Shown: positions 34,469 through 55,327 of the stretch, piece by piece | Position numbering within the stretch: position 1 is the first letter of the stretch | Layout of the letters: every line of letters starts with the position of its first letter | NCBI RefSeq assembly: GCF_018070025.1 | Contig: NZ_JAGPYQ010000001.1 | Coordinates: 5,146,001-5,210,000 of the forward strand | Length of the DNA: 64,000 nt | Reading direction: 5' to 3' | Source of the DNA: Streptomyces liliiviolaceus | GTDB lineage: Bacteria > Actinomycetota > Actinomycetes > Streptomycetales > Streptomycetaceae | Made by a program: the position numbers and the translations under genes | Notes under the pieces: generated by a model | What the model was told of the DNA's origin: nothing | Database searches by the model: none | Seen by the model: only the letters and a program-made list of their open reading frames with translations

Positions 34469-35485
34469 TCAGACGCTGTCGCCCAGGTCTTCGGGGAGCA
34501 GCACCACGCGGCCCAGGCCGCCCGCGCCCTCGCGGCCCTCCAGCAGACGGTGGGCGCGGGCGGCCTCGGTCAGCGGAAGCCTGGCCCGGACCCTGCCCTT
34601 GAGGCGGCCTCGGGCCAGTTCGCGGTTGATGTCGTGGGCGGCTTCGGCGAGTTCGGCCGCGGACGCGTTGCTGATGACGAAGCCGCGCACGCTGATGTCC
34701 CGGGTGTACACGGCTCCGACGGGCAGGACGGCGCGTACCCGGAGCCCGGCCGTGAGCACGACGCGACCGCCCCGGGCGAGCAGCGGGACGGTCGCCTCGA
34801 AGTCGTGGTGTCCTGAGCAGTCCCAGAGCACGTCCACTCCGCCGGGTGCCAGGTCACGGACGGCCTCGGGGGTTTTCGGGTCGTCGCGGTCGAGCACCTG
34901 GTCGGCTCCGCAGGCGCGGCACCACTCGGCGTTCTCGGCACGGTCGACGACGATCACCCGCGCGCCGGCCGTGGCCGCGAGCCGGACGACGGCGCTGCCG
35001 ACCCCTCCGCCGCCGCCCTGGACGAGGATCGTCTCGCCCTCCTGGAGGCGGGCGGTGCGGAACAGGCCGAGATGCGCGGTGGCCGCCGTGTGCAGAACGG
35101 CCACCGCGCGCTCCGGGTCGACCCCGGCGGGCAGGGGATACAGCCGGTCCACCGGGACGGCGGCGTACCGGGCGAACGAGCCCTGTCTGCCGTCGTGGCC
35201 GAGGCTGTTGCACCACACCCGGTCGCCGGCCGCGAACGGACCGGCGGGCGCGGCGACGGTACCGACGAGGTCCCGCCCGATGACGAAGGGAAACGGCACG
35301 TCGGTCGCGTACGCGCCGGAGCGGACGAAGGTGTCGACGTGATTCGCGGCGACCGCGTCGACCCGCACGAGTGCTTCGTGCGGGCCTGGGGCGGGTCTGG
35401 GCAGCCGGCCCACCCGGATGTCGTCCGCGCCGCCGAAACCCGTGATGTACGCCGCCGTCATGCCGGCGTCCGCTGCCTCCCTCAT
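34469..35485 (-). CDS. Zinc-independent quinone oxidoreductase-like dehydrogenase (MDR family)
   Basis: 338 residues. A GroES-like N-domain (VAANHVDTFVRSGAYATDVPF) is followed by the NADPH-binding loop VQGGGGGVGSAVVRLAAT. No structural zinc cysteines are present, so this is of the quinone oxidoreductase/enoyl reductase group. ATG 35485 overlaps the UbiA stop (ATGA), implying translational coupling. Reduction of a quinone or an enone in the prenylated intermediate is a reasonable guess. Confidence 0.88.
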   Translation of the reverse strand: MREAADAGMTAAYITGFGGADDIRVGRLPRPAPGPHEALVRVDAVAANHVDTFVRSGAYATDVPFPFVIGRDLVGTVAAPAGPFAAGDRVWCNSLGHDGRQGSFARYAAVPVDRLYPLPAGVDPERAVAVLHTAATAHLGLFRTARLQEGETILVQGGGGGVGSAVVRLAATAGARVIVVDRAENAEWCRACGADQVLDRDDPKTPEAVRDLAPGGVDVLWDCSGHHDFEATVPLLARGGRVVLTAGLRVRAVLPVGAVYTRDISVRGFVISNASAAELAEAAHDINRELARGRLKGRVRARLPLTEAARAHRLLEGREGAGGLGRVVLLPEDLGDSV

Positions 35486-36432
35486 GCCAGTACGAAGGCG
35501 AGTGCCAGTCCCAGGCAGCCCAGGTCGACCGAGCTGAGCCCGATGAACCGCGCCTTGCGCCACTCTTCCTTCCCGGCGCCGAAGTACAGCTGTACGGCGT
35601 GCAGGACGACGACGGGCACGACCGTCAGGGCGAGCAGCGGGTCGAACCGGGTGGTGGTGAACAGCAGGGTCAGCAGGGTGACGCTGGCGACGAAGAGCAG
35701 GGACAGGAAGACCTTGAACGCGCCGAGGGGCAGCAGCACGGCCATGGTGTGCCGGGACACCTCGGAGTCACCCTCTTTGTCGGAGGCGTTCCCGTAGGAC
35801 ACGATCAGCAGGAACCACACCCCCACGAGGGCTGCCGTGAACAGGGCTTCGGCGGTGACCTGGCCCGCGACCAGCCAGTACGGCACCAGGCCTATGCAGC
35901 CGATGACGTAGAAGATGGTGACTTCGAGTCCGCCCGGCAGATAGCTGAGCTTCAGTCCCGTCGAGTACTGCACCGAGGCGATCTGGCCCACGAGCATCAC
36001 CAGCACGGCGGCCAGCGGCGCTTTGCCGTCCAGGGTGAACACGGCGAGGAGCCCGGCCGCGACCGCGATCACCCACATCACGACACCGAACCGGACCGCC
36101 TCCGTCTCCGTCAGCACCCCGGTGAGGAGGGGTTTCTTGGCGACGGTGCCGGGCGGCCGGCCCGCGTAGTTGCGGGCGTCGCTGCCGTCCCGGAAGCCGC
36201 CGAGGTCGTCGGCGGCGCCCCCGCTCCACTGGGTGGCGAGCACCATCAGCAGGAGCAGGGCGAGCGCGGGCGCGGTGTCACGTCCCACATGGCCGTCCAG
36301 GCGCAGCAGGAGCAGGGCGAGGATCCAACCGTAGGCATGGTGGTAGATCCGGACCTTGCCCAGCCGGACGTATCCCATGGCCTTCGAGGCCGTGGAGCTC
36401 TTGGTGGCCTCGGACGCGCTGGTGGCGGTCAT
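35482..36432 (-). CDS. UbiA-family prenyltransferase
   Basis: 316 residues, membrane protein with about eight to nine helices. The two Asp-rich motifs of the family are present in variant form: ADDLGGFRDGSDARNY (about 75-90) and NASDKEGDSEVSRHT (about 225). It transfers an isoprenoid from its diphosphate to an aromatic or quinone acceptor at the membrane. In this cluster the acceptor may be 3-hydroxyanthranilate or a derivative. No prenyl diphosphate synthase is in the window, so the donor must come from general metabolism. Confidence 0.85.
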   Translation of the reverse strand: MTATSASEATKSSTASKAMGYVRLGKVRIYHHAYGWILALLLLRLDGHVGRDTAPALALLLLMVLATQWSGGAADDLGGFRDGSDARNYAGRPPGTVAKKPLLTGVLTETEAVRFGVVMWVIAVAAGLLAVFTLDGKAPLAAVLVMLVGQIASVQYSTGLKLSYLPGGLEVTIFYVIGCIGLVPYWLVAGQVTAEALFTAALVGVWFLLIVSYGNASDKEGDSEVSRHTMAVLLPLGAFKVFLSLLFVASVTLLTLLFTTTRFDPLLALTVVPVVVLHAVQLYFGAGKEEWRKARFIGLSSVDLGCLGLALAFVLA

Positions 36433-40911: not shown

Positions 40912-41718
40912 TCATAGATAGGCCCGGGCGTGCAGCACGGCCAGTTCGGCCAGTTCACCCTCGGCGGACAGTTCGCCTTTGGCGGCCAGGTCACCTTCGG
41001 CGGCCGGTGCGCCGGATGCGCTCGGTGCGGCCGGGCTGCCGCGCACGCGCCGGGTCGCGACCCGGCACCATGCCAGCAGCGAGCCGCGCAGCACATCGGT
41101 GGCGTCGGCCGGGCCGACCATGTGTCCAGTGCCGTCGCGCTCAGTCAACTCCAGGCGCAGAGTGCGACCTTGGGGCCGCCGCACCCGGCCCATGGCCAGC
41201 GCGTAGTGCAGGGTGGAGTGGCCGAGGACGGCGATCCGGCGCAGCCGTGGTGTCTCGTCCACCGGGAGTCCCAGTGCGTCACGGATGTCGAGGCCGTGCG
41301 CCCAGTGCTCCATGAGCCGGGCGGCCGCGAACGTCTCCGTGTTCATGCCGAAGCCCCAGGCCACGCGGTCCTCGGGGGCACGCTCGGCCAGTAGTCGACG
41401 GGTTCGCGCTGCGGCGCGGTCCCACCACGCGGTCAGGTCACCGGGCGGAAGTCCGTCGCCCCGGCGGCAGCCCGCGGCGGTGAAGTCCTCGGCCGTCGCG
41501 TACCGGGGCACGGTCCTCGTGAAGGCGCGCGGCCCGTCGGCCAGGGTGTCCGCGGCGACCTCTTCGGTGTCGGCGAGATGCGCCACCTGGTCGGCGACGG
41601 TCCAGCCGTCCGCCGCCGAGGGCCGCGGCCAGTCCGCGTCCTGGAGGGCCCCCAGCAGCGCGGCGAACTCCCGCTGCTCGTCGGCAAGATCGGCCAGTGC
41701 CTCCCGTACGGGAATCAC
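40912..41718 (-). CDS. Mycothiol-dependent maleylpyruvate isomerase-like (DinB-fold) protein
   Basis: 268 residues. DGWTVADQVAHLADTEEVAAD and RLMEHWAHGLDIRDALG carry the metal-binding His residues of the MDMPI/DinB fold, found in mycothiol S-transferases and isomerases. GTG 41718 overlaps the stop of the phosphotransferase gene (GTGA), so its expression is tied to it. The C-terminus ends in three tandem hexapeptides of the form AAEGDL/AAKGEL/SAEGEL, encoded by three 18-bp repeats (40951-41004). Thiol transfer or isomerisation of an intermediate is possible. Confidence 0.8.
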   Translation of the reverse strand: MIPVREALADLADEQREFAALLGALQDADWPRPSAADGWTVADQVAHLADTEEVAADTLADGPRAFTRTVPRYATAEDFTAAGCRRGDGLPPGDLTAWWDRAAARTRRLLAERAPEDRVAWGFGMNTETFAAARLMEHWAHGLDIRDALGLPVDETPRLRRIAVLGHSTLHYALAMGRVRRPQGRTLRLELTERDGTGHMVGPADATDVLRGSLLAWCRVATRRVRGSPAAPSASGAPAAEGDLAAKGELSAEGELAELAVLHARAYL

Positions 41719-42833
41719 AGCACCGCCACCGTTCCGGCCGAGCCGTCGACCGCGAGCGGGCGTCCCGAGCCCAGGCGGGCCAGCGCCGCGGCGCCCACCC
41801 CGGTCACGCAGGGCACCCCCAACTCCCGGGCGACGATGGCCGCGTGGCACAGCATGCCGCCCTCGGCGGTGACCAGAGCGGCCGCCTCCGCCATCAGCGG
41901 GACCCAGTCCGGGTCGGTGTGCTCCGTCAGCAGAACCGCGCCGGGCTCCCAGCGCGGATCGTCGACGTCCCGCAGCCGCAGGCCCCGAGCGGTGGCCAGA
42001 CCGCCGGAGGCCGCGATGCCGCGCACGAGCCGCTGACCACGCTCATCGGCAGGCTGGTCGGTTCGCCGGTCGCCGGGCTGGGCGGCCCTTTCAGCCGGCG
42101 CCTCGCCGAGCGCGGCCGTCATCGGACGGAACTGGAGCCACACCAGCGTCTCTTCGAGCTGTGCGAACTCCAGGTCGGCCGGGACGCCGAGTGCCTCCTG
42201 CACCATCGCGCACGCCGCGCCGACGGGCTGCCCTCCGCACTCCCACGCGTCGCGCTCCGATCCAGCTGTACGTCCCTCCGGCGTCCACTCCTCCCAGGCG
42301 GGGGTGACGGCACCGGAGACCAGCGTCTCCCCGCTGCCCTCGGTCCACTCCAGGCGGCCCCGGCCCGGCCCGCGGCCCAGCCAGAGGCCGCTGCGTACCG
42401 GAGGACGGAACGGCTGGAGCAGCACCGCCATCTCCACGTCGAGGGGTCCGGCGATCGTCCGTTCCCGGTATGCGGCGACCCGGCCGCTGTGCGCCGAGGC
42501 CCTGACGGCGGCGATCGCGTCGGCCACCTTCTCGGCCGGGACGTCGAGTTCGCTGCGGAACAGGCCGGCGTAACTCAGGCCGGTACCGTCCTCGACCGTG
42601 GCCGAGCTGCGCACCGCCCAGCGCGGCGCCACGGCCGTGAGCCGAGCCAGTGCCGCGGAGGTGGGAGCGGCGCCGACCGGCACCACCCAGGTGTCGGGGA
42701 TCGCCGCCCCGGCCCGCAGCAGTGCGGCGAGCCCCACGGCCTTGCCGCCCAGCACGCTCCGGTCGCGGTCTCCGGCGTCCCCGGGCAGCCCGAGGTCGCC
42801 GGTGAGCCGCAGCAGTGCGTCGGGGCCGCTCAT
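41715..42833 (-). CDS. Split PEP synthase/rifampicin phosphotransferase-like protein, ATP-grasp plus phospho-His swivel domain
   Basis: 372 residues. Residues about 20-250 are the PPDK-type nucleotide-binding domain (LGGKAVGLAALLRAGAAIP, WAVRSSATVEDGTGLSYAGLF, LVWLQFRPMT). Residues about 275-372 are the swivelling domain, with the phospho-acceptor His330 in GGMLCHAAIVARELGVPCV. The C-terminal PEP/pyruvate barrel of full enzymes and the substrate domain of rifampicin phosphotransferase are absent. ATP would phosphorylate His330, and the partner at 43794 would carry the substrate site. Phenylphosphate synthase is a known split enzyme of this type. Its ATG overlaps the upstream regulator's stop. 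Confidence 0.85.
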   Translation of the reverse strand: MSGPDALLRLTGDLGLPGDAGDRDRSVLGGKAVGLAALLRAGAAIPDTWVVPVGAAPTSAALARLTAVAPRWAVRSSATVEDGTGLSYAGLFRSELDVPAEKVADAIAAVRASAHSGRVAAYRERTIAGPLDVEMAVLLQPFRPPVRSGLWLGRGPGRGRLEWTEGSGETLVSGAVTPAWEEWTPEGRTAGSERDAWECGGQPVGAACAMVQEALGVPADLEFAQLEETLVWLQFRPMTAALGEAPAERAAQPGDRRTDQPADERGQRLVRGIAASGGLATARGLRLRDVDDPRWEPGAVLLTEHTDPDWVPLMAEAAALVTAEGGMLCHAAIVARELGVPCVTGVGAAALARLGSGRPLAVDGSAGTVAVL

Positions 42834-43456
42834 CGTGGCGTCCTGTCCCGTTCCTCGGTCTCCCGCTCGATCTTCAGCGAGACCAGCAGATCGCGGTGCA
42901 GCTCCATCCACACGTCGTGGTACGAGTCGCACAGCACACCGGTGAACGCCTGCTGCTCCCCTCCGCGCAGGCGGATCAGCGCGCGGGTGAGCCCGTCGGT
43001 GTAGCGCCCGAAGCGGGGGCGCACGGCGGTGAGCCGGTCCACGACCGGCATGGACTCCTCGTGCAGCGCGCCGAGTTCGTCGAACCGCGCCCGGTCGTAC
43101 GCAGGATCGGTGTGGTCGTTGGTCACGCCGTCACGGAGCTGCCAGCGGGTGCACAGCTCCTTGAACCGGTCGTTCAGCGGCAGGAAGCGCTCATATTCCG
43201 GTCGCAGTCGGTCGCGGGCGTCGCCGGTGAGGTCTTCGTCCAGCAGCGCGGCGTGCCGGTCGCGTCCCTCGGGTGTGACGCGCCACAGACCGCGGCGCTC
43301 CATGTGGGTGGCGAGCCCGTCCGCGCGCAGCTTCTCCAGTTCGGCGAGCACGTCCTCGCGCTCGTAGCGGCTGCCCGCCACCAGGGGATCGGTGGCGGCC
43401 ATCCCCTTGAGGGCCAGCACGTGGAGCACATCGAACGCGGCGGTGTCGGGAAGCAC
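42830..43456 (-). CDS. Winged-helix regulator-like protein (PadR/MarR type)
   Basis: 208 residues. The N-terminal 80 residues look like a winged helix (AFDVLHVLALKG, EDVLAELEKLRADGLATHMERRGLWRVTPEGRD); the rest is helical (YERFLPLNDRFKELC, WQLRDGVTNDHTDPAYDR) with a ligand-like cavity. GTG 43456 follows GGGAG. Its stop overlaps the phosphotransferase start. It may sense the phosphotransferase substrate or regulate the operon locally; direct repeats just upstream are candidate sites. It is not a typical cluster-wide activator. Confidence 0.65.
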   Translation of the reverse strand: MLPDTAAFDVLHVLALKGMAATDPLVAGSRYEREDVLAELEKLRADGLATHMERRGLWRVTPEGRDRHAALLDEDLTGDARDRLRPEYERFLPLNDRFKELCTRWQLRDGVTNDHTDPAYDRARFDELGALHEESMPVVDRLTAVRPRFGRYTDGLTRALIRLRGGEQQAFTGVLCDSYHDVWMELHRDLLVSLKIERETEERDRTPR

Positions 43457-43483
43457 GGCATCTCCCGTCGTCGTGGTCGGACG

Positions 43484-43516
43484 GTCGTCGGGTGGTCACA
43501 TCGTCGTCGGGTGGTC
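43484..43516. repeat. Direct repeat upstream of the winged-helix gene
   Basis: GTCGTCGGGTGGTC occurs at 43484-43497 and 43503-43516, one 19-bp period apart, in the 75-bp gap between the carrier-protein gene and the regulator gene. It may be a regulator binding site. Confidence 0.5.
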
Positions 43517-43531
43517 GTCGGGCAGGGGGCG

Positions 43532-43807
43532 TCAGGAGGCGCGGTCGGCGCGCAGTTCGTCGAGGAGTCCTACGAGGTCGCCGACCGTCGAGATCCCGGC
43601 GGTGCGGGGGTTGTCCACCAGCGCCACGCCGAAGCGTTCCTCCAGGGCGAGCAGGATCTCCAGGGTGGCCAGCGAGTCGACGCCCAGGTCCTGGACGATC
43701 CGGTCGGACGGCCGCAGGTCCCGCTGGACCCGTTTGACCTTGGCGTAGATCTCCTCCAGTGCCGTGAGCGCCTCACTGGGTGTCGAAGTGCGGTCAGGAA
43801 CGGTCAA
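43532..43807 (-). CDS. Acyl carrier protein
   Basis: 91 residues; the phosphopantetheine attachment serine is S45 in QDLGVDSLATLEILLALE. A stand-alone carrier, it probably receives the acyl group activated by one of the ligases (best candidate: the FAAL-like protein at 48650) and presents it to the acyl-CoA dehydrogenase-like and reductase-like enzymes. The start is TTG 43807, overlapping the preceding gene by 14 bp with GAGAGG upstream. Confidence 0.9.
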   Translation of the reverse strand: MTVPDRTSTPSEALTALEEIYAKVKRVQRDLRPSDRIVQDLGVDSLATLEILLALEERFGVALVDNPRTAGISTVGDLVGLLDELRADRAS

Positions 43808-45305
43808 AGATGTTCACCTCTCCGGTACTGCCATTGATGGAGACGGCCGTGCCCGCGGGCAGGGAGGCGGCTCCGGGGTAGCCCACGACGCAGGGAATCC
43901 CGTACTCGCGGGCGAGGATGGCGATGTGCGACAGGTCGCTGCCGCGTTCGCTGAGGACGCCTTCGGCGAAGGGCAGCAACGGGGCGATGTCCGCGTCCGC
44001 CGACGAGCAGACGATGATCACCGGTTCGTCGGGCAGGTCGTCCTGCGGGGCCATCACCGTGCCGGTGCCGATGCCCGGCGCCACGCCGCGCTGTTCCTGG
44101 GGTGTCGTGCTGAGCCACGGCCGCATGACGTCGTCGCCGGCGCTCAGGTCGAGGTGTTCGGGCATCGGGGTGGCGAGCGCCGCCCGGCAGGCCTCGACCC
44201 GCGGCCGGGCCCGTTCGATCCGTCCCGGTGAGGTCGCCAGATCCGTGAACTCCCGCAGTGTCAGATACGGCCACAGCCGCTCGGCGTCCTCTCCGAGTGA
44301 GGTCGCCAGCGCCGGGAGCAGCCGCCGGTAGATGTGCAGGGTGCGCATCGCCAGCGACTTGGAGTGTTCGCGGCCGGCCATCATCTCGCCGACGGCGACC
44401 GCCAGGGACCGTACGGTGCGGCTGCGCCACGGGGACACCATCCCGGCGAGCGCCTCGGCCGGGTCGATCGGGGCGACGGCGGCCTCGGTGCCGCCGCTCG
44501 CGACCTGTTTGTGCCGCACGGCGTAGTCCTGCCAGGGGGCCAGTCCGTCGGCGACCTCGTAGAAGGACGAGGACAGGAAGTCGCCCGGTCCGTGGGGGTC
44601 GAGGGTGGAGGCGGCGGTGTGCAGCCGGTCCCAGACCAGTTCGCGGGGCCGCGTCAGCCAGTGCGCGATCTCCTCGCCGTGCCGCAGCAGCTTGCCGTAG
44701 ACCCGGCGTTGCAGTGCGCGCACCGGTACGAGACCGGAGGTGGTGAGGATGTGCACCGCCCATGCCTCCTCCAGGACGGGCTGTGCGTCACGCAGTACCC
44801 CGGCCAGGGCGATCGGGCTGTTCGCGGTGGTCGCGGCGCGCAGCCCCCACTCCAGTTCGGCGACCTGTTCCTCCAGGGCGCGCAGCCGTGGTCCGGCGTC
44901 CCGCATCTCGCGCAGCAGCCGGGCGGAGCCGGCCCACTGGCGGGTCCGGCCGGAGCGCAGGGCGGTGAGTTCCGCCGGGGAGTCGACGCCCTCGAAGTAG
45001 GCGTCGGTGACGTCGCTGGGCCGCAGGCCCGGGATGGACGCGGACAGATGACAGTACGCGGCCAGGTTGTGGTACGGGCGGCAGCCGAAGTAGCCGACGA
45101 AGACGTAGTGGCCGCCCTCGGCCCACGCGGGGCGCCCCCACAGCCGCCGGGCCAGGGCGCGGGTGCCGCGTTCCATGGGATCGCCCACCAGCGACCAGGA
45201 CATGGGCGAGAGCCGCTGGGGGGCCACCTCGCCGAAGTTGCCCGCCGAGTAGACGGTGAAGTACGGATGCGGGTCGGTGTCCACCGACGCGGGTCGCGCG
45301 GTCAT
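43794..45305 (-). CDS. Split PEP synthase/rifampicin phosphotransferase-like protein, substrate-type domain plus phospho-His swivel domain
   Basis: 503 residues. The N-terminal about 390 residues are a helical domain opening NFGEVAPQRLSPMSWSLVG, which resembles the substrate-binding domain of rifampicin phosphotransferases. The C-terminal swivel domain carries His460 in SDLSHIAILAREYGIPCVVG. There is no ATP-grasp domain, so it cannot phosphorylate itself; the protein at 41715 supplies one. A swivel domain in both partners means the phosphate may pass His-to-His before reaching a hydroxyl of the substrate. Its ATG overlaps the stop of the next gene upstream (45302). Confidence 0.85.
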   Translation of the reverse strand: MTARPASVDTDPHPYFTVYSAGNFGEVAPQRLSPMSWSLVGDPMERGTRALARRLWGRPAWAEGGHYVFVGYFGCRPYHNLAAYCHLSASIPGLRPSDVTDAYFEGVDSPAELTALRSGRTRQWAGSARLLREMRDAGPRLRALEEQVAELEWGLRAATTANSPIALAGVLRDAQPVLEEAWAVHILTTSGLVPVRALQRRVYGKLLRHGEEIAHWLTRPRELVWDRLHTAASTLDPHGPGDFLSSSFYEVADGLAPWQDYAVRHKQVASGGTEAAVAPIDPAEALAGMVSPWRSRTVRSLAVAVGEMMAGREHSKSLAMRTLHIYRRLLPALATSLGEDAERLWPYLTLREFTDLATSPGRIERARPRVEACRAALATPMPEHLDLSAGDDVMRPWLSTTPQEQRGVAPGIGTGTVMAPQDDLPDEPVIIVCSSADADIAPLLPFAEGVLSERGSDLSHIAILAREYGIPCVVGYPGAASLPAGTAVSINGSTGEVNIFDRS

Positions 45306-46315
45306 GAAAGGGCCCTCTTCTCCGCGCCTGCCCGCAAGGTCTCCGTGCTTGCCGTGCCTGCCCGCAGGGCCTCGCCGGTCGCGCCCAGGTAGTCGGGGTC
45401 GGGGACCGGCCAGGGTTCGGGGATCTCCTTGAGGACGTCGACGTCCAGGTCGAGCCAGGGCTCGGCGTAGTCGGCCAACTCCCTTGGGGTGCCGACGCGT
45501 TCACCGATCAGTCGGGTGAACCGGCCCAGTGGCGCGGCCTCCACGATCTTCGGTACGACGCCCCAGGGCCGGCACACCTCGGTGAAGACCTCGCCGAGGG
45601 TGGGCAGCGCCGGGTCGAACCAGGTCCAGGTGGCCCGTCCGATGGGCTTGTCGAGGGCCTTGAGCACGATCTCCGCCGCCGAGGACACATCGGTGATCCA
45701 GCAGGGGAAGTCGCCTCGGCGGGCCAGATGGACGGGGTAGCCCGCGAGCAGGTGAGGGAACGCCATCGGCAGTCCGTGCCGGGTGTCGGGGCGTCCGCCG
45801 CGCGGGTCGGGTCCGAGCACCGGGCCGAAGCGCACGACGCCGACGGGCAGTTCGGGTGTGTCCCGCACGAGGCGTTCGGCGCAGTACTTGCCGTACTCGT
45901 ACCAGTTGCGAAACCGCTGGCCCGTGTACAGCTCGCGGTTGGTGATCCGGCCCTCGGAGCGGCCGAGCGCGAGCAGTGAGGAGACGTGCACGGCCTGCCG
46001 CAGGTGCGGGAGTTCCCGCAGGAAGGCCAGTGCCGAGCGGGTCCCGGAGCTGTGGGTCTCCAGGACCTCGCCGGGTCCGGAGGTCCAGGAGACCGAGCCG
46101 AAGCAGAACACGACGTGGGTGGTCTCCGTCCGGACCCGGGCCAGCTCGGCGGCGGACAGGCCGAGGCGCGGCAGCCGTACGTCGCCGCGTACGCCCTCGC
46201 CGGCGGTGGCGCGGCCGGAGCGTGACAGGACCCGGACCGTGGCGCCGGAGCGGACGCAGGCCTGCGCCACGGCCGTGCCGAGGAATCCGGAGCCGCCCAG
46301 GATCAACACGTTCAT
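45302..46315 (-). CDS. NAD-dependent epimerase/dehydratase-family protein (extended SDR)
   Basis: 337 residues. VLILGGSGFLGTAVAQACV is the NAD-binding GxxGxxG motif; HVSSLLALG supplies the Ser and YEYGKYCAE the YxxxK catalytic pair. Extended SDRs act on nucleotide sugars, sterol-like ketols or acyl ketones; with no sugar genes nearby, oxidation or reduction of the acyl or prenylated intermediate is more likely. It overlaps both neighbours by ATGA. Confidence 0.85.
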   Translation of the reverse strand: MNVLILGGSGFLGTAVAQACVRSGATVRVLSRSGRATAGEGVRGDVRLPRLGLSAAELARVRTETTHVVFCFGSVSWTSGPGEVLETHSSGTRSALAFLRELPHLRQAVHVSSLLALGRSEGRITNRELYTGQRFRNWYEYGKYCAERLVRDTPELPVGVVRFGPVLGPDPRGGRPDTRHGLPMAFPHLLAGYPVHLARRGDFPCWITDVSSAAEIVLKALDKPIGRATWTWFDPALPTLGEVFTEVCRPWGVVPKIVEAAPLGRFTRLIGERVGTPRELADYAEPWLDLDVDVLKEIPEPWPVPDPDYLGATGEALRAGTASTETLRAGAEKRALS

Positions 46316-47430
46316 GCCAGGAACCTCGACAATCCGTGGTCGGCGGGGGCCAGGGGCCGTTGGGGCTCCGGCAGGTCGAACAGCAGCCGGGCCAGCAGTT
46401 CGGCGGAGGGCTCCGGCAGTCGTCCGTCGACCAACTGGGCCAGCCGTCCGCGTTCCATCACCCGGTCCAGACCGATGTAGCGCAGCCCGATGAGGCTGTT
46501 GCGCCAGGCCGGTGAGAGGGGCAGGAAACGTTCGGCGTTGGCCGAGAGCCACAGCACCTGTTCGGCGGAGGCGGGCACGAGCCGGACCCATTTGCCGAAG
46601 GCCAGGGGCGACAGGGCGCGCGCCGTCTCCAGCAGGGCCCGCAGGGTCGGGGCCCGTTCCCCGGCCGAGAGATGGGTGATGACGGGCTCGGGGTGAGGTC
46701 CCGACCGGCGCAGTCCGGCCACCGAGTCCAGCAGGGTGCCGGCCGCCAGGTCGCGGGGCAGGACGTCGACCTTGGCGCCGCGCATGGCGGGCAGGACCCG
46801 GCCGGGCAGTTCGTCCCACCGTTCGGCCAGCAGGTACAGCGAATTGCGCTTGCGGGTGGCGCCGGTGCGGGAGTCGCCGAGCAGTGCGGCGACCCGGCTG
46901 ATGAGGATGTCGGGGCCGCCGGGCCCGTGCTGCCGCTCCAGTTCCCGTTCGGCCAGCCACTTGCTGTGTTCGTACGCGGTGCGGTGGCGGTCGGGGGCGA
47001 GCGGTGTCTCGGCGATGCGGCCGAGGGTGCCGCCGACGACGTAGATCGAGGACGCCTGGACGTAGGCCACGCGGCGGCCGGAGCGGCGTTGCAGTTCACG
47101 GGCCACGTCGTAGCCGTTGCGGGCGCCCAGGACGTTGACGGCGTACAGGTCGCGGCCGCTGCCCGCCCAGTTGGTGTCCCCGGCGAGGTTGACGACGGCG
47201 TCCACGTCGTCCGCGAGCGCGTCCAGATCGGCTTCGCCTAGGCCCCACAGGGGTTCGCGGACGTCGCCGGTGACCTGGACGGCGGCCAGGGACGGGAAGG
47301 CCCGCTCGAAGGGGACCTGGCCGGGGCGGGCGGGGCGTACCAGGGGCACGAGCGTGACACCGCGCTCGGGCGCGATCTCGGCGACGGCGGTGCCGAGTTG
47401 TCCGGTGACTCCGGTGAGCAGCAGTTTCAT
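46312..47430 (-). CDS. Thioester reductase-like extended SDR
   Basis: 372 residues. LLLTGVTGQLGTAVAEIAPE is the NADP-binding loop in the form seen in fatty acyl-CoA/thioester reductases; VAYVQASSIYVVGG and YEHSKWLAERELE carry the Ser/Tyr/Lys triad. The C-terminal region (LRYIGLDRVMERGRL) is also reductase-like. It could release a carrier-bound acyl group as aldehyde or alcohol, which would suit the ACP and ligases in the operon. It overlaps its neighbours by ATGA on both sides. Confidence 0.8.
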   Translation of the reverse strand: MKLLLTGVTGQLGTAVAEIAPERGVTLVPLVRPARPGQVPFERAFPSLAAVQVTGDVREPLWGLGEADLDALADDVDAVVNLAGDTNWAGSGRDLYAVNVLGARNGYDVARELQRRSGRRVAYVQASSIYVVGGTLGRIAETPLAPDRHRTAYEHSKWLAERELERQHGPGGPDILISRVAALLGDSRTGATRKRNSLYLLAERWDELPGRVLPAMRGAKVDVLPRDLAAGTLLDSVAGLRRSGPHPEPVITHLSAGERAPTLRALLETARALSPLAFGKWVRLVPASAEQVLWLSANAERFLPLSPAWRNSLIGLRYIGLDRVMERGRLAQLVDGRLPEPSAELLARLLFDLPEPQRPLAPADHGLSRFLA

Positions 47431-48653
47431 CCGAGGTCGACACTCTCGTCGTAGGCGGCGTCGTCGGGGACCAGTCCGCCGGCGACCAGTTCCCACAGCA
47501 TCTCGTCGGTCCCGCCGCCGATCCGGGCCAGTCGGGAGTCGCGCCACATGCGGGACATCGGTGTCTCGTCCTCCAGATAGCCGGGGCCGCCGAACAGGTG
47601 CATGCACTCGCTCGTCACCTCGGCGACGAACCGGGCCGCGGTGGTCTTGAGCGCCGCGATCTCCCGGGTGCCGCACGCGCCCGGCACCGGCACGCCCTGG
47701 GCGGCGGCGTAGACGGCGAAGCGCAGCGCCACCAGCCGGGAGGACAGTTCGGCCAGGCGCAGCCGCAGGGCCTGCTGCTCCATGAGCGGTCCGCCGAACT
47801 GCTCGCGGCGCTGGAGGTGGGCGGTGGCGAGGCCGATGGCGCGGGCGGCGCCGCCGACGGCCTGGGCGGCGATGGAGAGCCGTTCGTGGTTGAGCCCCCA
47901 GGTCGCGACGAGCAGTCCGCTGCCGGGCCGGCCGACCAGGGCCTCCTCGGGCACCTCGGCGTCGACCAGCATCCAGGTGGTGTCGAGCGCGGCGGTGCCG
48001 GCCTTGCTGAGCCGCTTGCGGGGAGTGAGTCCGGAGGCGGGGACGGCGAGCAGCCCGAGACGTCCGGCGACCGGTCCCGCGCCCTCGTCGAGGCGGCACA
48101 GCAGCAGGGCGATGTCGCAGACCAGGCCGAGCGACAGGTATTTCTTCTCGCCCGTCACGTGCCAGCCGCCGGGAGTCCTGCGGGCCACGGTGCGCACGCC
48201 GTTGAGGTCCGAGCCGCCGGTGGGTTCCGAGGCGCCGAGGCAGCCCACGAGCCGTCCGTCCAGCGCCCGGTCCCGGTACTCGGCGAGCAGCGGGGTGTCG
48301 CCGTAACGGGTGAGGACCGACAGGACCGTCTCGCAGTGCAGGCTGAGCCCGACCGACAGGCCCGCGTGCCCGAGCCGGCCGCTCTCCTCGGCGATGATCA
48401 CTGCGAGTCCGGGATCGCCGTACGGTTCGGCGGGGTCGGCCTGCGCCCAGCGCTCCCGGAAGAGTCCTGCGGCGCCGAGTCCGGCCAGCAGCTCCCGAGG
48501 GAACAGGCCTTCCGACTCGGCCTGTCGGGCGACGGGTTCGAAGGTCTGCCGCAGCAGTCCCGCGATCCGTTCGCGGGCCTCCTCCACGCGTTCGCCGAAC
48601 GGTCCCGCCGCGAACAGGCGGGAGGTCAGCGCCGGTGTGTCCACCACACTCAC
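47427..48653 (-). CDS. Acyl-CoA dehydrogenase-family flavoprotein
   Basis: 408 residues. CLGASEPTGGSDLNGVRTVARR is the FAD/substrate loop and LFGGPGYLEDETPMSRMWRD with RIGGGTDEM the C-terminal signature. It would introduce an alpha,beta double bond into an acyl thioester, possibly on the ACP rather than CoA. GTG 48653 overlaps the FAAL-like gene's stop (GTGA), so the two are probably partners in making an unsaturated acyl group. Confidence 0.92.
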   Translation of the reverse strand: MSVVDTPALTSRLFAAGPFGERVEEARERIAGLLRQTFEPVARQAESEGLFPRELLAGLGAAGLFRERWAQADPAEPYGDPGLAVIIAEESGRLGHAGLSVGLSLHCETVLSVLTRYGDTPLLAEYRDRALDGRLVGCLGASEPTGGSDLNGVRTVARRTPGGWHVTGEKKYLSLGLVCDIALLLCRLDEGAGPVAGRLGLLAVPASGLTPRKRLSKAGTAALDTTWMLVDAEVPEEALVGRPGSGLLVATWGLNHERLSIAAQAVGGAARAIGLATAHLQRREQFGGPLMEQQALRLRLAELSSRLVALRFAVYAAAQGVPVPGACGTREIAALKTTAARFVAEVTSECMHLFGGPGYLEDETPMSRMWRDSRLARIGGGTDEMLWELVAGGLVPDDAAYDESVDLG

Positions 48654-50329
48654 GAGTCGCTGCGCTCCTTCAGTTCGCCCGCCAAGTAGGCCAGCCACAG
48701 CGAACGGCGGCGGGGCTTGCGGCTGGAGGTCAGCGGGATGGTCCCCCGCTTGACGGTCAGCACCTGGGCACGTCCCTCGTCGCCGGTGAACGACGTGATG
48801 ACCGACAGCACGTCGTCGAGCCGGTCGCCCAGGGGGCGTTCGGTGACCACCAGGACGCGTGGCTCGCCGCGTACGACTCCGGCGACGACGGTGGCGTAGC
48901 GCTTGGAGACGGCTCCGGAGGCGACGAGTTCCAGTTCGATGTCCTCGACGAAGACGTTCTGGCCGTTGATCTTCACGCTGTCGCCGAGCCGGCCGATCAC
49001 GTACAGCTCGCCGTCCAGCAGGAATCCGGCGTCGCCGGTGTACAGCTTGCCGCCGCCCAGCCTGGCCAGGTCCTCGGGGGTCGCGTCCGCGTAGCCCTCG
49101 GCGACCGAGGGGCCCTGGACGAAGATCTCGCCGAGGACGCCCTCCGGTTGCGGGGCGCCTTCCTCGTCCAGGATCTCCACGCGCGCGCTCTCCAGCGGCG
49201 GACCGCAGCTGACCTGCCAGTTCCAGGGTTCGGCGACCGGCTCGGTGCTGAGTTCGGTGCTCTCGCGCACGTCCAGTTTCTCGCCGAGGCGCCGTTCCAG
49301 TCCGCCGACGCGCACGAGCCGGGGCAGGTCCCCCTTGCCGACGCCGGTGACGGCGAGGGTGCCCTCGGCCAGGCCGTACGCGGGCATGAGTGCCCGGACG
49401 TCGAAGCCGTACGGGCCGAGCAGCGCGGCGAACCGGGCCAGCACCGCGGGGTCGATCCGCTCGGCGCCGCTGACGACGGCGGTCAGCGCGGAGAAGTCGA
49501 GCCCCTCCAGATGGTGGGGCCGGACCGTCGCCAGGACCCGCTCGAACCCGAAGTTGGGCATGCACATGGAGGTGTACGGGGTGCGGCCGTACTCGGCGAG
49601 CCAGCCGGGGGTGTCGCGGACGAACTGCTCCGGGCGCATCAGGGCGTGCTCCACCTGGAGGGTCAGCGCGCCCAGCAGTCCGCCGACCAGACCCATGTCG
49701 TGGTAGAGCGGCAGCCAGGTGACCGCGCCGTGGCCGACCGGGTCCATCCAGCTGCCGATCATGCGGAGGTTGGCGGCCAGGTTGGCGACCGAGACGCGCA
49801 GGGCGCGCGGGGAGCCGCGGGAGCCGGAGGTGAACTGGAGGACGGCGAGGTCGCCCCAGGCGCGCGGCGCCTCGTCGGGGCGGTCGGCGTAGCGCGGTGC
49901 GATGACCTCGGTGCCGCCGCCGATGCGGGCCACGTTCTCCCCGACGATGTCGTGGTAGCGCGGGTCGGCGATCGCGTGCCGGGGATGGATGCGGGCGGTG
50001 ATGGCCTTCAGCTGGCTCTGGTAGCCCTCCCCCGCCCGCAGGGCGAGCGGCAGGGGCAGTACGGACGGGGTGGCGCCGATCGCCAGCAGCCCGAAGAACT
50101 GCGTGACGAAGTCCTCGCCGCCCGGCACCACCAGCGGTACGACGTCGCCGGGACGCACCCCGGCGTCGGCGAGCGCGGCGCCCGCGCCCAGGGTCCGGCG
50201 GGCCAGTTCGCGGTAGGTGAGTCGCTGCCAGGAGCCGTCGTCCAGCCGGAACCGCATCCCGCGTTCGTCGGACGGGGCGTCCAGCCAGCCGAGCAGCCGC
50301 TCGTGGTCGGCCGTCTTACGCTGCGACAA
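48650..50329 (-). CDS. Fatty acyl-AMP ligase-like enzyme
   Basis: 559 residues. LQFTSGSRGSPRALRVS, TWLPLYHDMGLVGGLLGAL and DSVKINGQNVFVEDIE are FAAL-type features; the catalytic Lys lies in TSSRKPRRRSLW. FAALs adenylate a fatty acid and pass it to a carrier protein instead of CoA, and a free-standing ACP is in the same operon. It starts with TTG 50329 after GGAGGG. Fifteen bases separate it from the preceding ligase. Confidence 0.88.
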   Translation of the reverse strand: MSQRKTADHERLLGWLDAPSDERGMRFRLDDGSWQRLTYRELARRTLGAGAALADAGVRPGDVVPLVVPGGEDFVTQFFGLLAIGATPSVLPLPLALRAGEGYQSQLKAITARIHPRHAIADPRYHDIVGENVARIGGGTEVIAPRYADRPDEAPRAWGDLAVLQFTSGSRGSPRALRVSVANLAANLRMIGSWMDPVGHGAVTWLPLYHDMGLVGGLLGALTLQVEHALMRPEQFVRDTPGWLAEYGRTPYTSMCMPNFGFERVLATVRPHHLEGLDFSALTAVVSGAERIDPAVLARFAALLGPYGFDVRALMPAYGLAEGTLAVTGVGKGDLPRLVRVGGLERRLGEKLDVRESTELSTEPVAEPWNWQVSCGPPLESARVEILDEEGAPQPEGVLGEIFVQGPSVAEGYADATPEDLARLGGGKLYTGDAGFLLDGELYVIGRLGDSVKINGQNVFVEDIELELVASGAVSKRYATVVAGVVRGEPRVLVVTERPLGDRLDDVLSVITSFTGDEGRAQVLTVKRGTIPLTSSRKPRRRSLWLAYLAGELKERSDS

Positions 50330-52532: not shown

Positions 52533-53210
52533 CTACGGGACAACTGGACCGGCCGGATCGCCGGAAACGTCTGGCACGTCCAGGAGATCGAGCAGCTGCG
52601 CGGTGGTGTGCACGGCCGCACAGCAGCGGACGGCGTAATCGAGTGCGGAGCGGTGGTGTTCGGCGGTGAAATCGGCCACCGCGTCCGCGACCAGGAACGG
52701 CTGGATGTCGGAGCTGAAGGCGTCGACGGCGGTGATCAGGCAGCCGACATGGGCGTACACCCCGCACACGATCAGCTGGTCCCGTCCGGACTTCTCCATC
52801 ACGTCACGGAGTTCGGAGCGGACGAACGCGCTGTAGCGCCACTTGGTGAGGACCAGGTCTCCGTCGGCCGGCTTCAGGGCGTCGACGATCGCGGTGTCGT
52901 GCTCCCGCGCGGACATTCCGGGGCCCCAGAAGTCGTGGAGCAGGCCGCGCTGTTCGCGGTCCATGTCGCCGGGCTGGGCCGAGTAGACCACCGGCATCCC
53001 GAGGGCGACGGCACGCTCGCGCAGGGCGCCGATGTGGGCCAGCAGTTCCTCGTACGGAGAACTGTCGGGGTCGAAGGGGGCGAGGAAGTACGCCTGCAGG
53101 TCGTGCAGGAAGAGGACGGCCCGGTCGGGGTCCGGCCGCCAGTCGACCTGGTTCGGGGGCAGTTCGGCGGCGGTGGGCATGGGATAGGGCGGGATGGCGG
53201 GGATGCTCAT
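52533..53210 (-). CDS. phzD: Isochorismatase, PhzD type (2-amino-2-deoxyisochorismatase)
   Basis: 225 residues and close to phenazine PhzD throughout: IPAIPPYPMPTAAELPPN, VLFLHDLQAYFL with D37, SAQPGDMDREQRGLLHDFWG, LTKWRYSAF with K123 and CGVYAHVGCLITAVDAFS. It cleaves the enolpyruvyl ether of 2-amino-2-deoxyisochorismate to trans-2,3-dihydro-3-hydroxyanthranilate and pyruvate. It lies between an EntA-type dehydrogenase and the SRPBCC gene, downstream of phzC and phzE in the same direction. Confidence 0.94.
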   Translation of the reverse strand: MSIPAIPPYPMPTAAELPPNQVDWRPDPDRAVLFLHDLQAYFLAPFDPDSSPYEELLAHIGALRERAVALGMPVVYSAQPGDMDREQRGLLHDFWGPGMSAREHDTAIVDALKPADGDLVLTKWRYSAFVRSELRDVMEKSGRDQLIVCGVYAHVGCLITAVDAFSSDIQPFLVADAVADFTAEHHRSALDYAVRCCAAVHTTAQLLDLLDVPDVSGDPAGPVVP

Positions 53211-53219
53211 GTCCGCTGT

Positions 53220-54008
53220 TCACACCCCCAGGACGGCGCCGCCGTCGACGCACAGGTCCTGCATCGTGATGTGCCGGGCCCGGTCGGAGGCGAGGAAGAC
53301 GACGGCGTCCGCGATGTCACCGGGTTCGGCGATCCGGCGCAGCGGAATTCCGGTCCTGTACGCCTCCGCGGAACCGTCGATCGTCGACTGGCGGCCCGAT
53401 TCCGTCGTCCACAGCGAACGCAGCATCTCGGTGTCGGTGGAGCCGGGCGACACCACGTTGCAGCGAATTCCGTGTTCCGCCAGTTCCAGCCCGAGCGATT
53501 TGGTGAAGAGGGAGGCGGCGGCCTTCGAGGCGCCGTACGCGGCCATCTGCAATCGGGGTATCCGTCCGGCGTTGGAGGCGACGGTCACGATCGCGCCCTC
53601 TCCGCGTTCCCTCATTCGTGCGGCGACGGCCCGGGAGCAATGGAAGAGACCGTCGAGATTGGTGGAGAAGATTGCCCGCCAGTCCGTGTCGGACATGTCG
53701 ACCAAGGTTCCGGAGCGCATGACTCCGGCGGCGTTCACCAGCAGGTCCACGGCACCGAGTTCGTTCTCGATCCGCTCGACCGTTTCCTCGATCCGGGCGG
53801 ATACGGTGATGTCGGTGGGAAATGCGACGGCCTTCAGTCCGTCGGCTGCCGATTTCTCCACCAGATCGGCGAGTCCCGCCGGGTCCTTGTCCACGGCCGC
53901 CACCACGGCTCCGCGACTCGCGAGAGCGCGCACCACGGCGTTTCCGATTCCGCCCGCCGCTCCTGTCACCAGCGCGACGCGGGAGACGATTTCACTGTGC
54001 TCGGTCAC
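53220..54008 (-). CDS. Short-chain dehydrogenase of the 2,3-dihydro-2,3-dihydroxybenzoate dehydrogenase (EntA/DhbA) type
   Basis: 262 residues. VALVTGAAGGIGNAVVRAL is the NAD site, VTVASNAGRIPR carries the Ser, and YGASKAAAS the Tyr/Lys. The C-terminus (SPGSTDTEMLRSLW and HITMQDLCVDGGAVLG) matches EntA. Given PhzD next door, it most likely oxidises dihydro-3-hydroxyanthranilate to 3-hydroxyanthranilate. GTG 54008 is the chosen start because the upstream frame is not EntA-like. The 116-bp gap before it carries a short inverted repeat. Confidence 0.92.
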   Translation of the reverse strand: MTEHSEIVSRVALVTGAAGGIGNAVVRALASRGAVVAAVDKDPAGLADLVEKSAADGLKAVAFPTDITVSARIEETVERIENELGAVDLLVNAAGVMRSGTLVDMSDTDWRAIFSTNLDGLFHCSRAVAARMRERGEGAIVTVASNAGRIPRLQMAAYGASKAAASLFTKSLGLELAEHGIRCNVVSPGSTDTEMLRSLWTTESGRQSTIDGSAEAYRTGIPLRRIAEPGDIADAVVFLASDRARHITMQDLCVDGGAVLGV

Positions 54009-54082
54009 CTTCCCACCTTCCAGAAAAGAAGGGCGTCCGCCGGCACAAGACACAGGGCAACGGCGGGATATCGCGAGTCTAC

Positions 54083-54102
54083 GGATTCCTGTGCGCGAAT
54101 CC
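54083..54102. other. Short inverted repeat in the phzC-dehydrogenase gap
   Basis: GGATTC (54083-54088) pairs with GAATCC (54097-54102) 23 bp past the phzC stop. It could be a weak terminator or processing site adjusting levels of the downstream genes. Confidence 0.35.
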
Positions 54103-54124
54103 AGGTGTGGACGTGGACCGGAAT

Positions 54125-55327
54125 CTAGGACCGGACCCAGGCCCGCATCAATTCGGCGGCCTGGTCCGGATTCAGTCGCGGATCGCACAGCGTCGTATAC
54201 CGCTCGGCCAGCCGGTCGACCCCGTCGACCTTTCCGCCCAGACATTCGGTGACATCCGACGCGGCCACTTCCAGATGGAGTCCGCCCGGGTGCTCCCCCG
54301 CCCGTTCCAGCACGCGTTTGCAGCGGCTCGCCTCGTCCACGACGTCGGTGAGGCGCCGCGTCTTGCGGCCTGCCTCCCGCACCGTGTTGCCGTGCATCGG
54401 ATCGCTCAGCCAGACCGGCCGGTGCCCCGCGTCCCGTACGGCGGCCACGAGCGGCGGCAACAGCCCGGTCACCCGCTCCGCGCCCATCCGCACGATCAGG
54501 GTGAGCCGACCGGGCATCCGGTACGGGTCCAACAGCGCGCACACCTCCCGCAGTTCGTCCGTCGCGACGGACGGTCCGAGCTTGAGCGCCACCGGGTTCA
54601 CGACGGATGCCAGCAGCCGGACATGGGCCGAGTCGGGAGCTCTGGTGCGGTCGCCGAGCCAGGGCAGATGCGTCGAACCGAGGAACCGCCGCCCGCCGTC
54701 CGTACGGACCAGCCGGGCCTCGTAGTCGACGACCAGGGCGTCATGGCTGGCCCACGGCCCGTCCTCGAACTCCTGTAAGCGGCGGGCGCGTTGGTCCCGT
54801 TCGCGGGTCAGGGCGCGCAGTACGTCGGCGCTCGCCTGGTAGGCCCGGACCATCCGGCGCGGGTCGTGGGCCCGTGCCTCGGGGGTGGGGCTCTCGCCGT
54901 TCACCATGTGGCCCCGGAAGGCCGGCAGCAGCACTCCGCCGACCTCTTCGTGGGGCAGGGTGCGGGGCTTGGCGAACTGGCCGCCGATCCGCCCGACCCG
55001 TAGCACCGGCAGGCCCGTGCTGTCGGCCACCTCGTCGGCGAGGGCGTGCAGCACCGCCGTCTTGGCCCGGACCTGGTCGGCGTCGGTCTCCTCGAAACTC
55101 TCCGCGCAGTCGCCGAGTTGCAGCATCACCGCCCCGCCCCCGGCCACCACCGCGAGGGCCCGCCGCAGCCGCGCCAGTTCCTCCGGGGTCACCAGCGCGG
55201 GCGCGGACGCCAGCGCGGTGCAGCTGGGCTCGTACGCGGGGTGCGTCGCCCAGTCCGGCTGCTGGGCCGCCTCCACGCCCGCCGGCCACGGCTGTCGGGG
55301 AGTGCTCCGCGCTCCGTCGCCGGTCAT
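54125..55327 (-). CDS. phzC: Class II DAHP synthase (PhzC type)
   Basis: 400 residues. MLQLGDCAESFEETDADQ, LRVGRIGGQFAKPR and WLSDPMHGNT are the plant-type (class II) DAHP synthase motifs with the metal-binding Cys, His and Glu. It condenses PEP and erythrose 4-phosphate, raising flux into chorismate for the pathway. Its ATG overlaps the phzE stop (ATGA at 55324-55327). A TTA codon (54776-54778, Leu in RRLQEF) makes it a probable bldA target. Confidence 0.94.
   Translation of the reverse strand: MTGDGARSTPRQPWPAGVEAAQQPDWATHPAYEPSCTALASAPALVTPEELARLRRALAVVAGGGAVMLQLGDCAESFEETDADQVRAKTAVLHALADEVADSTGLPVLRVGRIGGQFAKPRTLPHEEVGGVLLPAFRGHMVNGESPTPEARAHDPRRMVRAYQASADVLRALTRERDQRARRLQEFEDGPWASHDALVVDYEARLVRTDGGRRFLGSTHLPWLGDRTRAPDSAHVRLLASVVNPVALKLGPSVATDELREVCALLDPYRMPGRLTLIVRMGAERVTGLLPPLVAAVRDAGHRPVWLSDPMHGNTVREAGRKTRRLTDVVDEASRCKRVLERAGEHPGGLHLEVAASDVTECLGGKVDGVDRLAERYTTLCDPRLNPDQAAELMRAWVRS

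Follow-up and report, generated by a model that had tools for sequence, protein, structure and literature searches.

We analysed a 64,000-nt stretch of the Streptomyces liliiviolaceus genome (NZ_JAGPYQ010000001.1, positions 5,146,001-5,210,000; the whole stretch is hereafter the window) and found two genes, gene A (41715..42833) and gene B (43794..45305), that very probably encode one two-component dikinase of the RPH type, as judged from their sequences and predicted folds. We further propose, at somewhat less than an even chance, that the substrate is an allylic alcohol which a conserved set of neighbouring genes (hereafter the cassette) would make from a fatty acid; the two proteins would phosphorylate it and a prenyltransferase would attach it to an aromatic ring. 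No paper describing the cassette was found by title or abstract start in a literature search confined to open-licence papers.

Domains and swivels of the two proteins

41715..42833, minus strand: gene A, 372 aa; ATP-grasp domain at residues ~1-240 and phospho-histidine swivel domain at ~267-372, with H330 at 41846-41844
43794..45305, minus strand: gene B, 503 aa; RPH-type acceptor domain at residues ~9-400 and swivel domain at ~403-503, no ATP-grasp
44372-44358 and 43928-43926, minus strand: gene B sites R312-E313-x-x-K316 and H460, respectively

The preliminary description had taken the two genes for a split ATP-dependent phosphotransferase with complementary parts and a duplicated swivel, and the Pfam domains, predicted folds and conserved motifs bore this out. 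The gene A protein joins an ATP-grasp domain to a swivel, with a Pfam PEP-utilizers match at residues 296-367 that encloses H330, and the gene B protein joins an RPH-like substrate domain to a swivel of its own (H460) in the absence of an ATP-grasp. Predicted folds compared by VIA-align gave RPH, PPDK and PEP synthase for both proteins, and also HpeI for gene A, among the matches listed. Unlike PEP synthase and PPDK, neither protein has a Pfam match to the phosphoenolpyruvate/pyruvate-binding barrel PF02896. Such a barrel is likewise missing from the operon: its three matches in the whole genome all lie outside the window, the nearest ~44 kb from gene A. An open frame resembling PEP synthase, in which ATP-grasp, swivel and barrel all find matches, was seen ~2.3 kb before the window (G000:C1:5141094-5143700).

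Across 23 aligned gene A sequences the invariant residues include, among others, G29, K31, R75, E81, D82, Q140, E162, D220, E222, Q234, R236 and H330, some of which presumably belong to the ATP site. By our reading of the motifs, K31 and R75 would be counterparts of ATP-side residues of RPH, for which excerpts of the published study give Lys22, Arg117 and Thr136 as the ATP-side set and Arg666, Glu667, Lys670 and His825 as the acceptor-side set (PMC4844700). In gene B, R312, E313, K316 and H460 are invariant across 26 aligned sequences, and the RExxK pattern is present in all 120 homologues listed (of 146 found, the window's own copy included). Together the two proteins appear to match RPH in all three domain types, in the RExxK pattern and in the swivel histidine, but they are split over two open reading frames, the swivel is duplicated and the substrate is presumably another.

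The two swivels carry different loops. A GGxx[CST]H loop was found in 62 of the 63 gene A homologues examined (P0002 and P0124-P0185, of 96 matches), the remaining one being a truncated record, and a GSxxSH loop in 119/120 listed gene B homologues, none of which has GG. None of the 120 shows the GGK plus VRSS/IRSS motifs either, as a single chain with all three RPH domains would. The sole listed homologue without GSxxSH, P0023 (724 aa), has no swivel; we considered it as a fusion of gene B to the adjacent short-chain dehydrogenase/reductase (SDR) gene, SDR_b, and rejected this because its middle looks out-of-frame by eye and the swivel is missing, so that it was treated as a frameshifted record. 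Gene A exists in more than one type, namely the form in the window and a form with an MPGMMDT loop (L017, L019, L024, L025 and L062), and both have the swivel histidine, an indication that the second swivel is required. This retention, together with the GG versus GS loops of two conserved swivels, lends indirect support to a relay in which the phosphoryl group would pass from His330 to His460. Direct docking of the gene B swivel on the gene A ATP-grasp, by analogy with the model for HpeHI, is also possible. Gene A-like proteins of ~570-590 aa were seen as well (P0178-P0185), with an N-terminal extension of ~230 aa in the two that were read.

Phenylphosphate synthase, offered earlier as the precedent, proved an apt one, and HpeHI and CreHI are further documented cases (excerpts of PMC12167813). 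In these excerpts HpeHI is a two-component dikinase for hydroxyphenylethanones, with CreHI and PpsAB named as homologues, and the division of labour is that of genes A and B, with the ATP-grasp on one protein and the acceptor domain plus swivel on the other. However, the ATP component HpeI is said there to have an ATP-grasp and to lack a swivel, whereas gene A carries one. The swivel motif given for the HpeH-type acceptor component, T/SxxGGxxxH, was not found in the listed homologues of gene B, whose swivel has GS; HpeH, CreH and PpsA share ~45% identity, and we liken gene B to them by description. The characterised members described there act in aromatic catabolism, whereas genes A and B lie in biosynthetic-type clusters with acyl carrier protein (ACP)-linked acyl genes. 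Overall, the pair looks like the two-component dikinases HpeHI, CreHI and PpsAB, apart from the extra swivel on its ATP component. Gene A also resembles VadK (Rv1127c), an ATP-grasp plus histidine-domain protein phosphorylated on His422, in having no pyruvate domain; it differs in the window by the absence of the MPGMMDT loop, and the VadK partners named in excerpts of the report are methylcitrate-cycle enzymes, with no acceptor-domain partner among them (PMC13400623).

The conserved cassette and its distribution

A scan with one genome per species returned 28 loci, spread over Streptomyces, Amycolatopsis, Actinomadura, Frankia, Nocardia, Micromonospora, Actinophytocola and Antrihabitans, of which 27 were counted as intact. 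The swivels of both gene A and gene B were found in 22/28 loci; this figure replaces a gene A tally of 27/27, set aside because several of its matches fall on gene B's own swivel. In five of the other six the stretch runs up to the end of its contig (L016, L018, L020, L021 and L022, the last with the ATP-grasp of gene A ahead of the end), and the sixth, L027, is decayed. Both gene A domains were confirmed by Pfam in L008 and L023. The decayed cluster copy of L027 (Actinophytocola gossypii) retains partial SDR_b, gene B, MDMPI and FMO gene matches close together, and gene A of L004 (Streptomyces himastatinicus) is split over two frames, by sequence error or decay. In a survey of gene B only, 3/199 genomes of the genus carried it, that of the window included, which marks the pair as rare rather than housekeeping; it sits in biosynthetic-type clusters.

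48650..50329, minus strand: fatty-acyl-AMP ligase (FAAL)-like protein; FAALs among its best solved matches
47427..48656, minus strand: acyl-ACP dehydrogenase, MbtN-like (4xvx, 1.7e-87; 297 bits, second-best match 138)
46312..47430, minus strand: SDR_a, thioester-reductase-like (NAD_binding_4; Pfam 78 bits; best solved match MxaA, 8e-11)
45302..46315, minus strand: SDR_b, an extended SDR of the NAD_binding_4 type, immediately ahead of gene B (Pfam 63 bits; weak MxaA match)
43532..43807, minus strand: ACP, 91 aa, with a DSL motif, directly after gene B (Pfam PP-binding, 30.5 bits)
42830..43456, minus strand: 208-aa protein overlapping the gene A start; winged-helix-like N-part by eye
40912..41718, minus strand: MDMPI-type (mycothiol-dependent family) protein overlapping the gene A end (Pfam 91.5 bits)
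35482..36432, minus strand: UbiA-type prenyltransferase (Pfam UbiA, 60 bits; both acidic motifs by eye)

The dehydrogenase, SDR_a, SDR_b, gene B and ACP are present in all 27 intact loci, in that constant order, and a FAAL in 26, the exception (L011) beginning at a contig end; tallies for SDR_c, AMPlig1 and AMPlig3 possibly contain cross-hits and were not used. FAAL, ATP-grasp and swivel form one open frame in three loci (L024:11777-15502, L025:11777-15328 and L062:1529-5575), and in a fourth, FAAL and the ATP-grasp of gene A share a frame whose contig ends before the swivel (L022:11456-14848). All four are clusters with genes of the 3-amino-4-hydroxybenzoate (3,4-AHBA) type. The dehydrogenase of L024, compared along with that of the window, is also closest to MbtN among solved structures (260 versus 144 bits).

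A UbiA protein scored above the family cut-off within the fetched stretch in 20/27 intact loci, against a chance expectation of 0.39 if the loci were independent, which they are not. L023 has a UbiA ~6 kb outside the stretch, L014 an ABBA enzyme by Pfam, and L015 and L028 relatives of the latter by similarity, so that a prenyltransferase of either kind lies in or beside the stretch in 24/27 intact loci; of the others, L011 is cut at a contig end. The UbiA proteins form three groups that stay unjoined in BLAST clustering. Of 22 genomes searched, two (G010 and G012) have a polyprenyl diphosphate synthase less than 30 kb from gene A, at ~14 kb; the survey excluded 7 of the genomes that hold the 28 loci, and some contigs are short. 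In the genome of the window, the closest such gene is ~87 kb away.

The 208-aa protein has no Pfam or NCBIfam match, and PADLOC matched neither it nor gene A or gene B. It has 224 homologues, other actinobacteria included, some named MarR family, with a conserved WMELHxDLL-like stretch in the family; a family profile found no relative among 218 proteins compared. It may be a third component or subunit, or a regulator. In or beside the cassette, an aconitase-type large subunit was observed in L008, L009 and L013 (by Pfam in L009), joined in L009 and L013 by P450-like genes and a protein that resembles the small subunit, both recognised by eye.

A plasmid search with gene B retrieved distant relatives only, all below 60% identity and at 25-40% in the places listed. 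Acyl-CoA dehydrogenases and AMP ligases accompany the gene B-like proteins in gene runs of the L047 and L049 plasmids, and the L048 plasmid has such a protein near kinase-like phosphotransferase genes. In L049 (Rhodococcus), a 463-aa ATP-grasp plus swivel protein and a 412-aa swivel protein share one gene run with acyl-CoA dehydrogenases and an AMP ligase, so double-swivel pairs may reach wider than the cassette.

The proposed substrate and competing explanations

The company that the pair keeps, lipid-handling genes and ring-alkylating enzymes, may point to an unusual activated lipid tail rather than to phosphorylation of the ring. MbtM-MbtL-MbtN is the mycobactin side-chain module, in which MbtN helps to make a 2-enoyl side chain; the cassette likewise has a FAAL, an ACP and an MbtN-like acyl-ACP dehydrogenase, but here two SDRs, the dikinase and a prenyltransferase follow. 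From the domain content, the residues and gene set that are conserved, the predicted folds and the fusion we infer the following scheme, whose enzyme steps draw on family-level homology. The FAAL would load a fatty acid onto the ACP, the MbtN-like dehydrogenase would convert it to a 2-enoyl-ACP, and SDR_a and SDR_b would reduce the thioester to a 2-alken-1-ol, the allylic alcohol. The gene A protein would bind ATP and phosphorylate its own H330, the phosphoryl group would move to H460 of the gene B protein, and the RExxK site of the latter would place it on the hydroxyl. The product would be an allylic phosphate, or a diphosphate if both swivels phosphorylate in turn, with which the UbiA or ABBA prenyltransferase would alkylate the aromatic acid of the cluster. 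The window contains no GHMP kinase, and no other small-molecule kinase was present among 26 cluster proteins scanned with Pfam, other kinase families not having been searched genome-wide.

52533..57372, minus strand: 3-hydroxyanthranilate (3HAA) supply genes, whole block; variable, outside the conserved cassette
52533-53210, minus strand: isochorismatase (Pfam)
~53220-53990, minus strand: DhbA-type SDR (TIGR04316, 343.5 bits; cut-off 300)
~54125-55324, minus strand: class II 3-deoxy-D-arabino-heptulosonate 7-phosphate (DAHP) synthase (Pfam)
55324-57372, minus strand: chorismate-binding/glutamine amidotransferase protein, PhzE-like (Pfam)

The preliminary description had put forward 3HAA-type phenols as substrates to assay. 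Relatives of the isochorismatase and of the DAHP synthase each occur in 6/27 intact loci (L001-L005 and L007), compared with 26-27/27 for the FAAL, ACP, dehydrogenase and two SDRs, and we rejected 3HAA as a general substrate. Genes A and B are maintained where the cluster has 3,4-AHBA-type genes, type III polyketide synthase (PKS) genes or neither. Dehydroquinate synthase (DHQS)- and aldolase-type genes in L022, L024, L025 and L061 are presumably for 3,4-AHBA synthesis, by analogy with GriH/GriI, and type III PKS genes occur in L016-L021 and also beside L014 and L028. A broader form of the idea, that the pair phosphorylates a phenolic hydroxyl of whichever aromatic building block the cluster makes (3HAA, 3,4-AHBA or a type III PKS product), with the phosphate serving to protect the ring or to set up a later step, could draw on the 17/27 intact loci with a recognisable source of one of these in or beside the stretch, and on HpeHI, CreHI and PpsAB, the characterised two-component relatives, which act on phenols according to excerpts of PMC12167813. 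We consider it unlikely, given the rarity of 3HAA genes compared with the acyl genes, the fusion of gene A to FAAL in four genomes and the adjacency of gene B to the ACP in all 27 intact loci.

Another explanation starts from the acyl genes themselves. The tambjamine pathway has a similar set of acyl, dehydrogenase, reductase and PigC genes, and the pair could be a ligase like PigC, RedH or TamQ that activates an aldehyde produced by the FAAL, ACP and reductases and joins it to a nucleophile, either an amine or a carbon. The PigC and RedH models do match both proteins, in gene B on the swivel only, but far under their curated cut-offs (PigC, 1300 bits: 100.7 for A and 40.6 for B; RedH, 1350 bits: 101.8 and 32.8), and the prenyltransferases would be left unexplained, which makes such a ligase quite improbable. 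Very improbable, in our view, is regulatory or resistance phosphotransfer, in which gene A would autophosphorylate like VadK, whose layout it has (excerpts of PMC13400623), and gene B would inactivate the cluster product as RPH, which it resembles, does with rifampin. Gene B sits between SDR_b and the ACP in 27/27 intact loci, and the pair stays constant while the aromatic sources vary between clusters.

Several observations weigh against the allylic alcohol as substrate, or against the pair as we describe it. UbiA enzymes normally require a diphosphate, and RPH-type enzymes give monophosphates. In L010 and L012 no UbiA lies near, and the stretches compared contain nothing related to the ABBA enzyme of L014. 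These two are the loci with a polyprenyl synthase ~14 kb from gene A; L010 also has a sub-threshold polyprenyl-synthase-like stretch. A missing local synthase is weak evidence, since prenyltransferases may take geranyl or farnesyl diphosphate from primary metabolism. For SDR_a of L017, a sugar reductase is a slightly better match than MxaA, and the scheme does not explain the role of the MDMPI-type protein (15/27 intact loci) or of the 208-aa protein (detected in 20/27). The GS swivel loop also occurs in the gene B-like protein of the Mycobacterium avium plasmid (L048) and is not unique to the cassette. The loci are related, and their counts are not independent.

The most far-reaching form of the allylic alcohol proposal is a terpenoid-independent route to prenyl-like donors, in which the double-swivel dikinase would make the allylic diphosphate by two phosphoryl transfers in succession or by a single pyrophosphoryl transfer, for use by UbiA or ABBA enzymes on aromatic acids. 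We regard this as somewhat doubtful.

Implications

If genes A and B do form one enzyme, two-component dikinases would extend beyond aromatic catabolism, with a swivel on each component, and a histidine-to-histidine phosphorelay might operate within a small-molecule kinase. If the proposed substrate is also right, allylic phosphates or diphosphates would be made without isoprenoid pathways, which would account for the UbiA and ABBA enzymes of clusters that for the most part have no isoprenyl synthase close by, and the cassette would provide tools for attaching fatty chains to aromatic rings.

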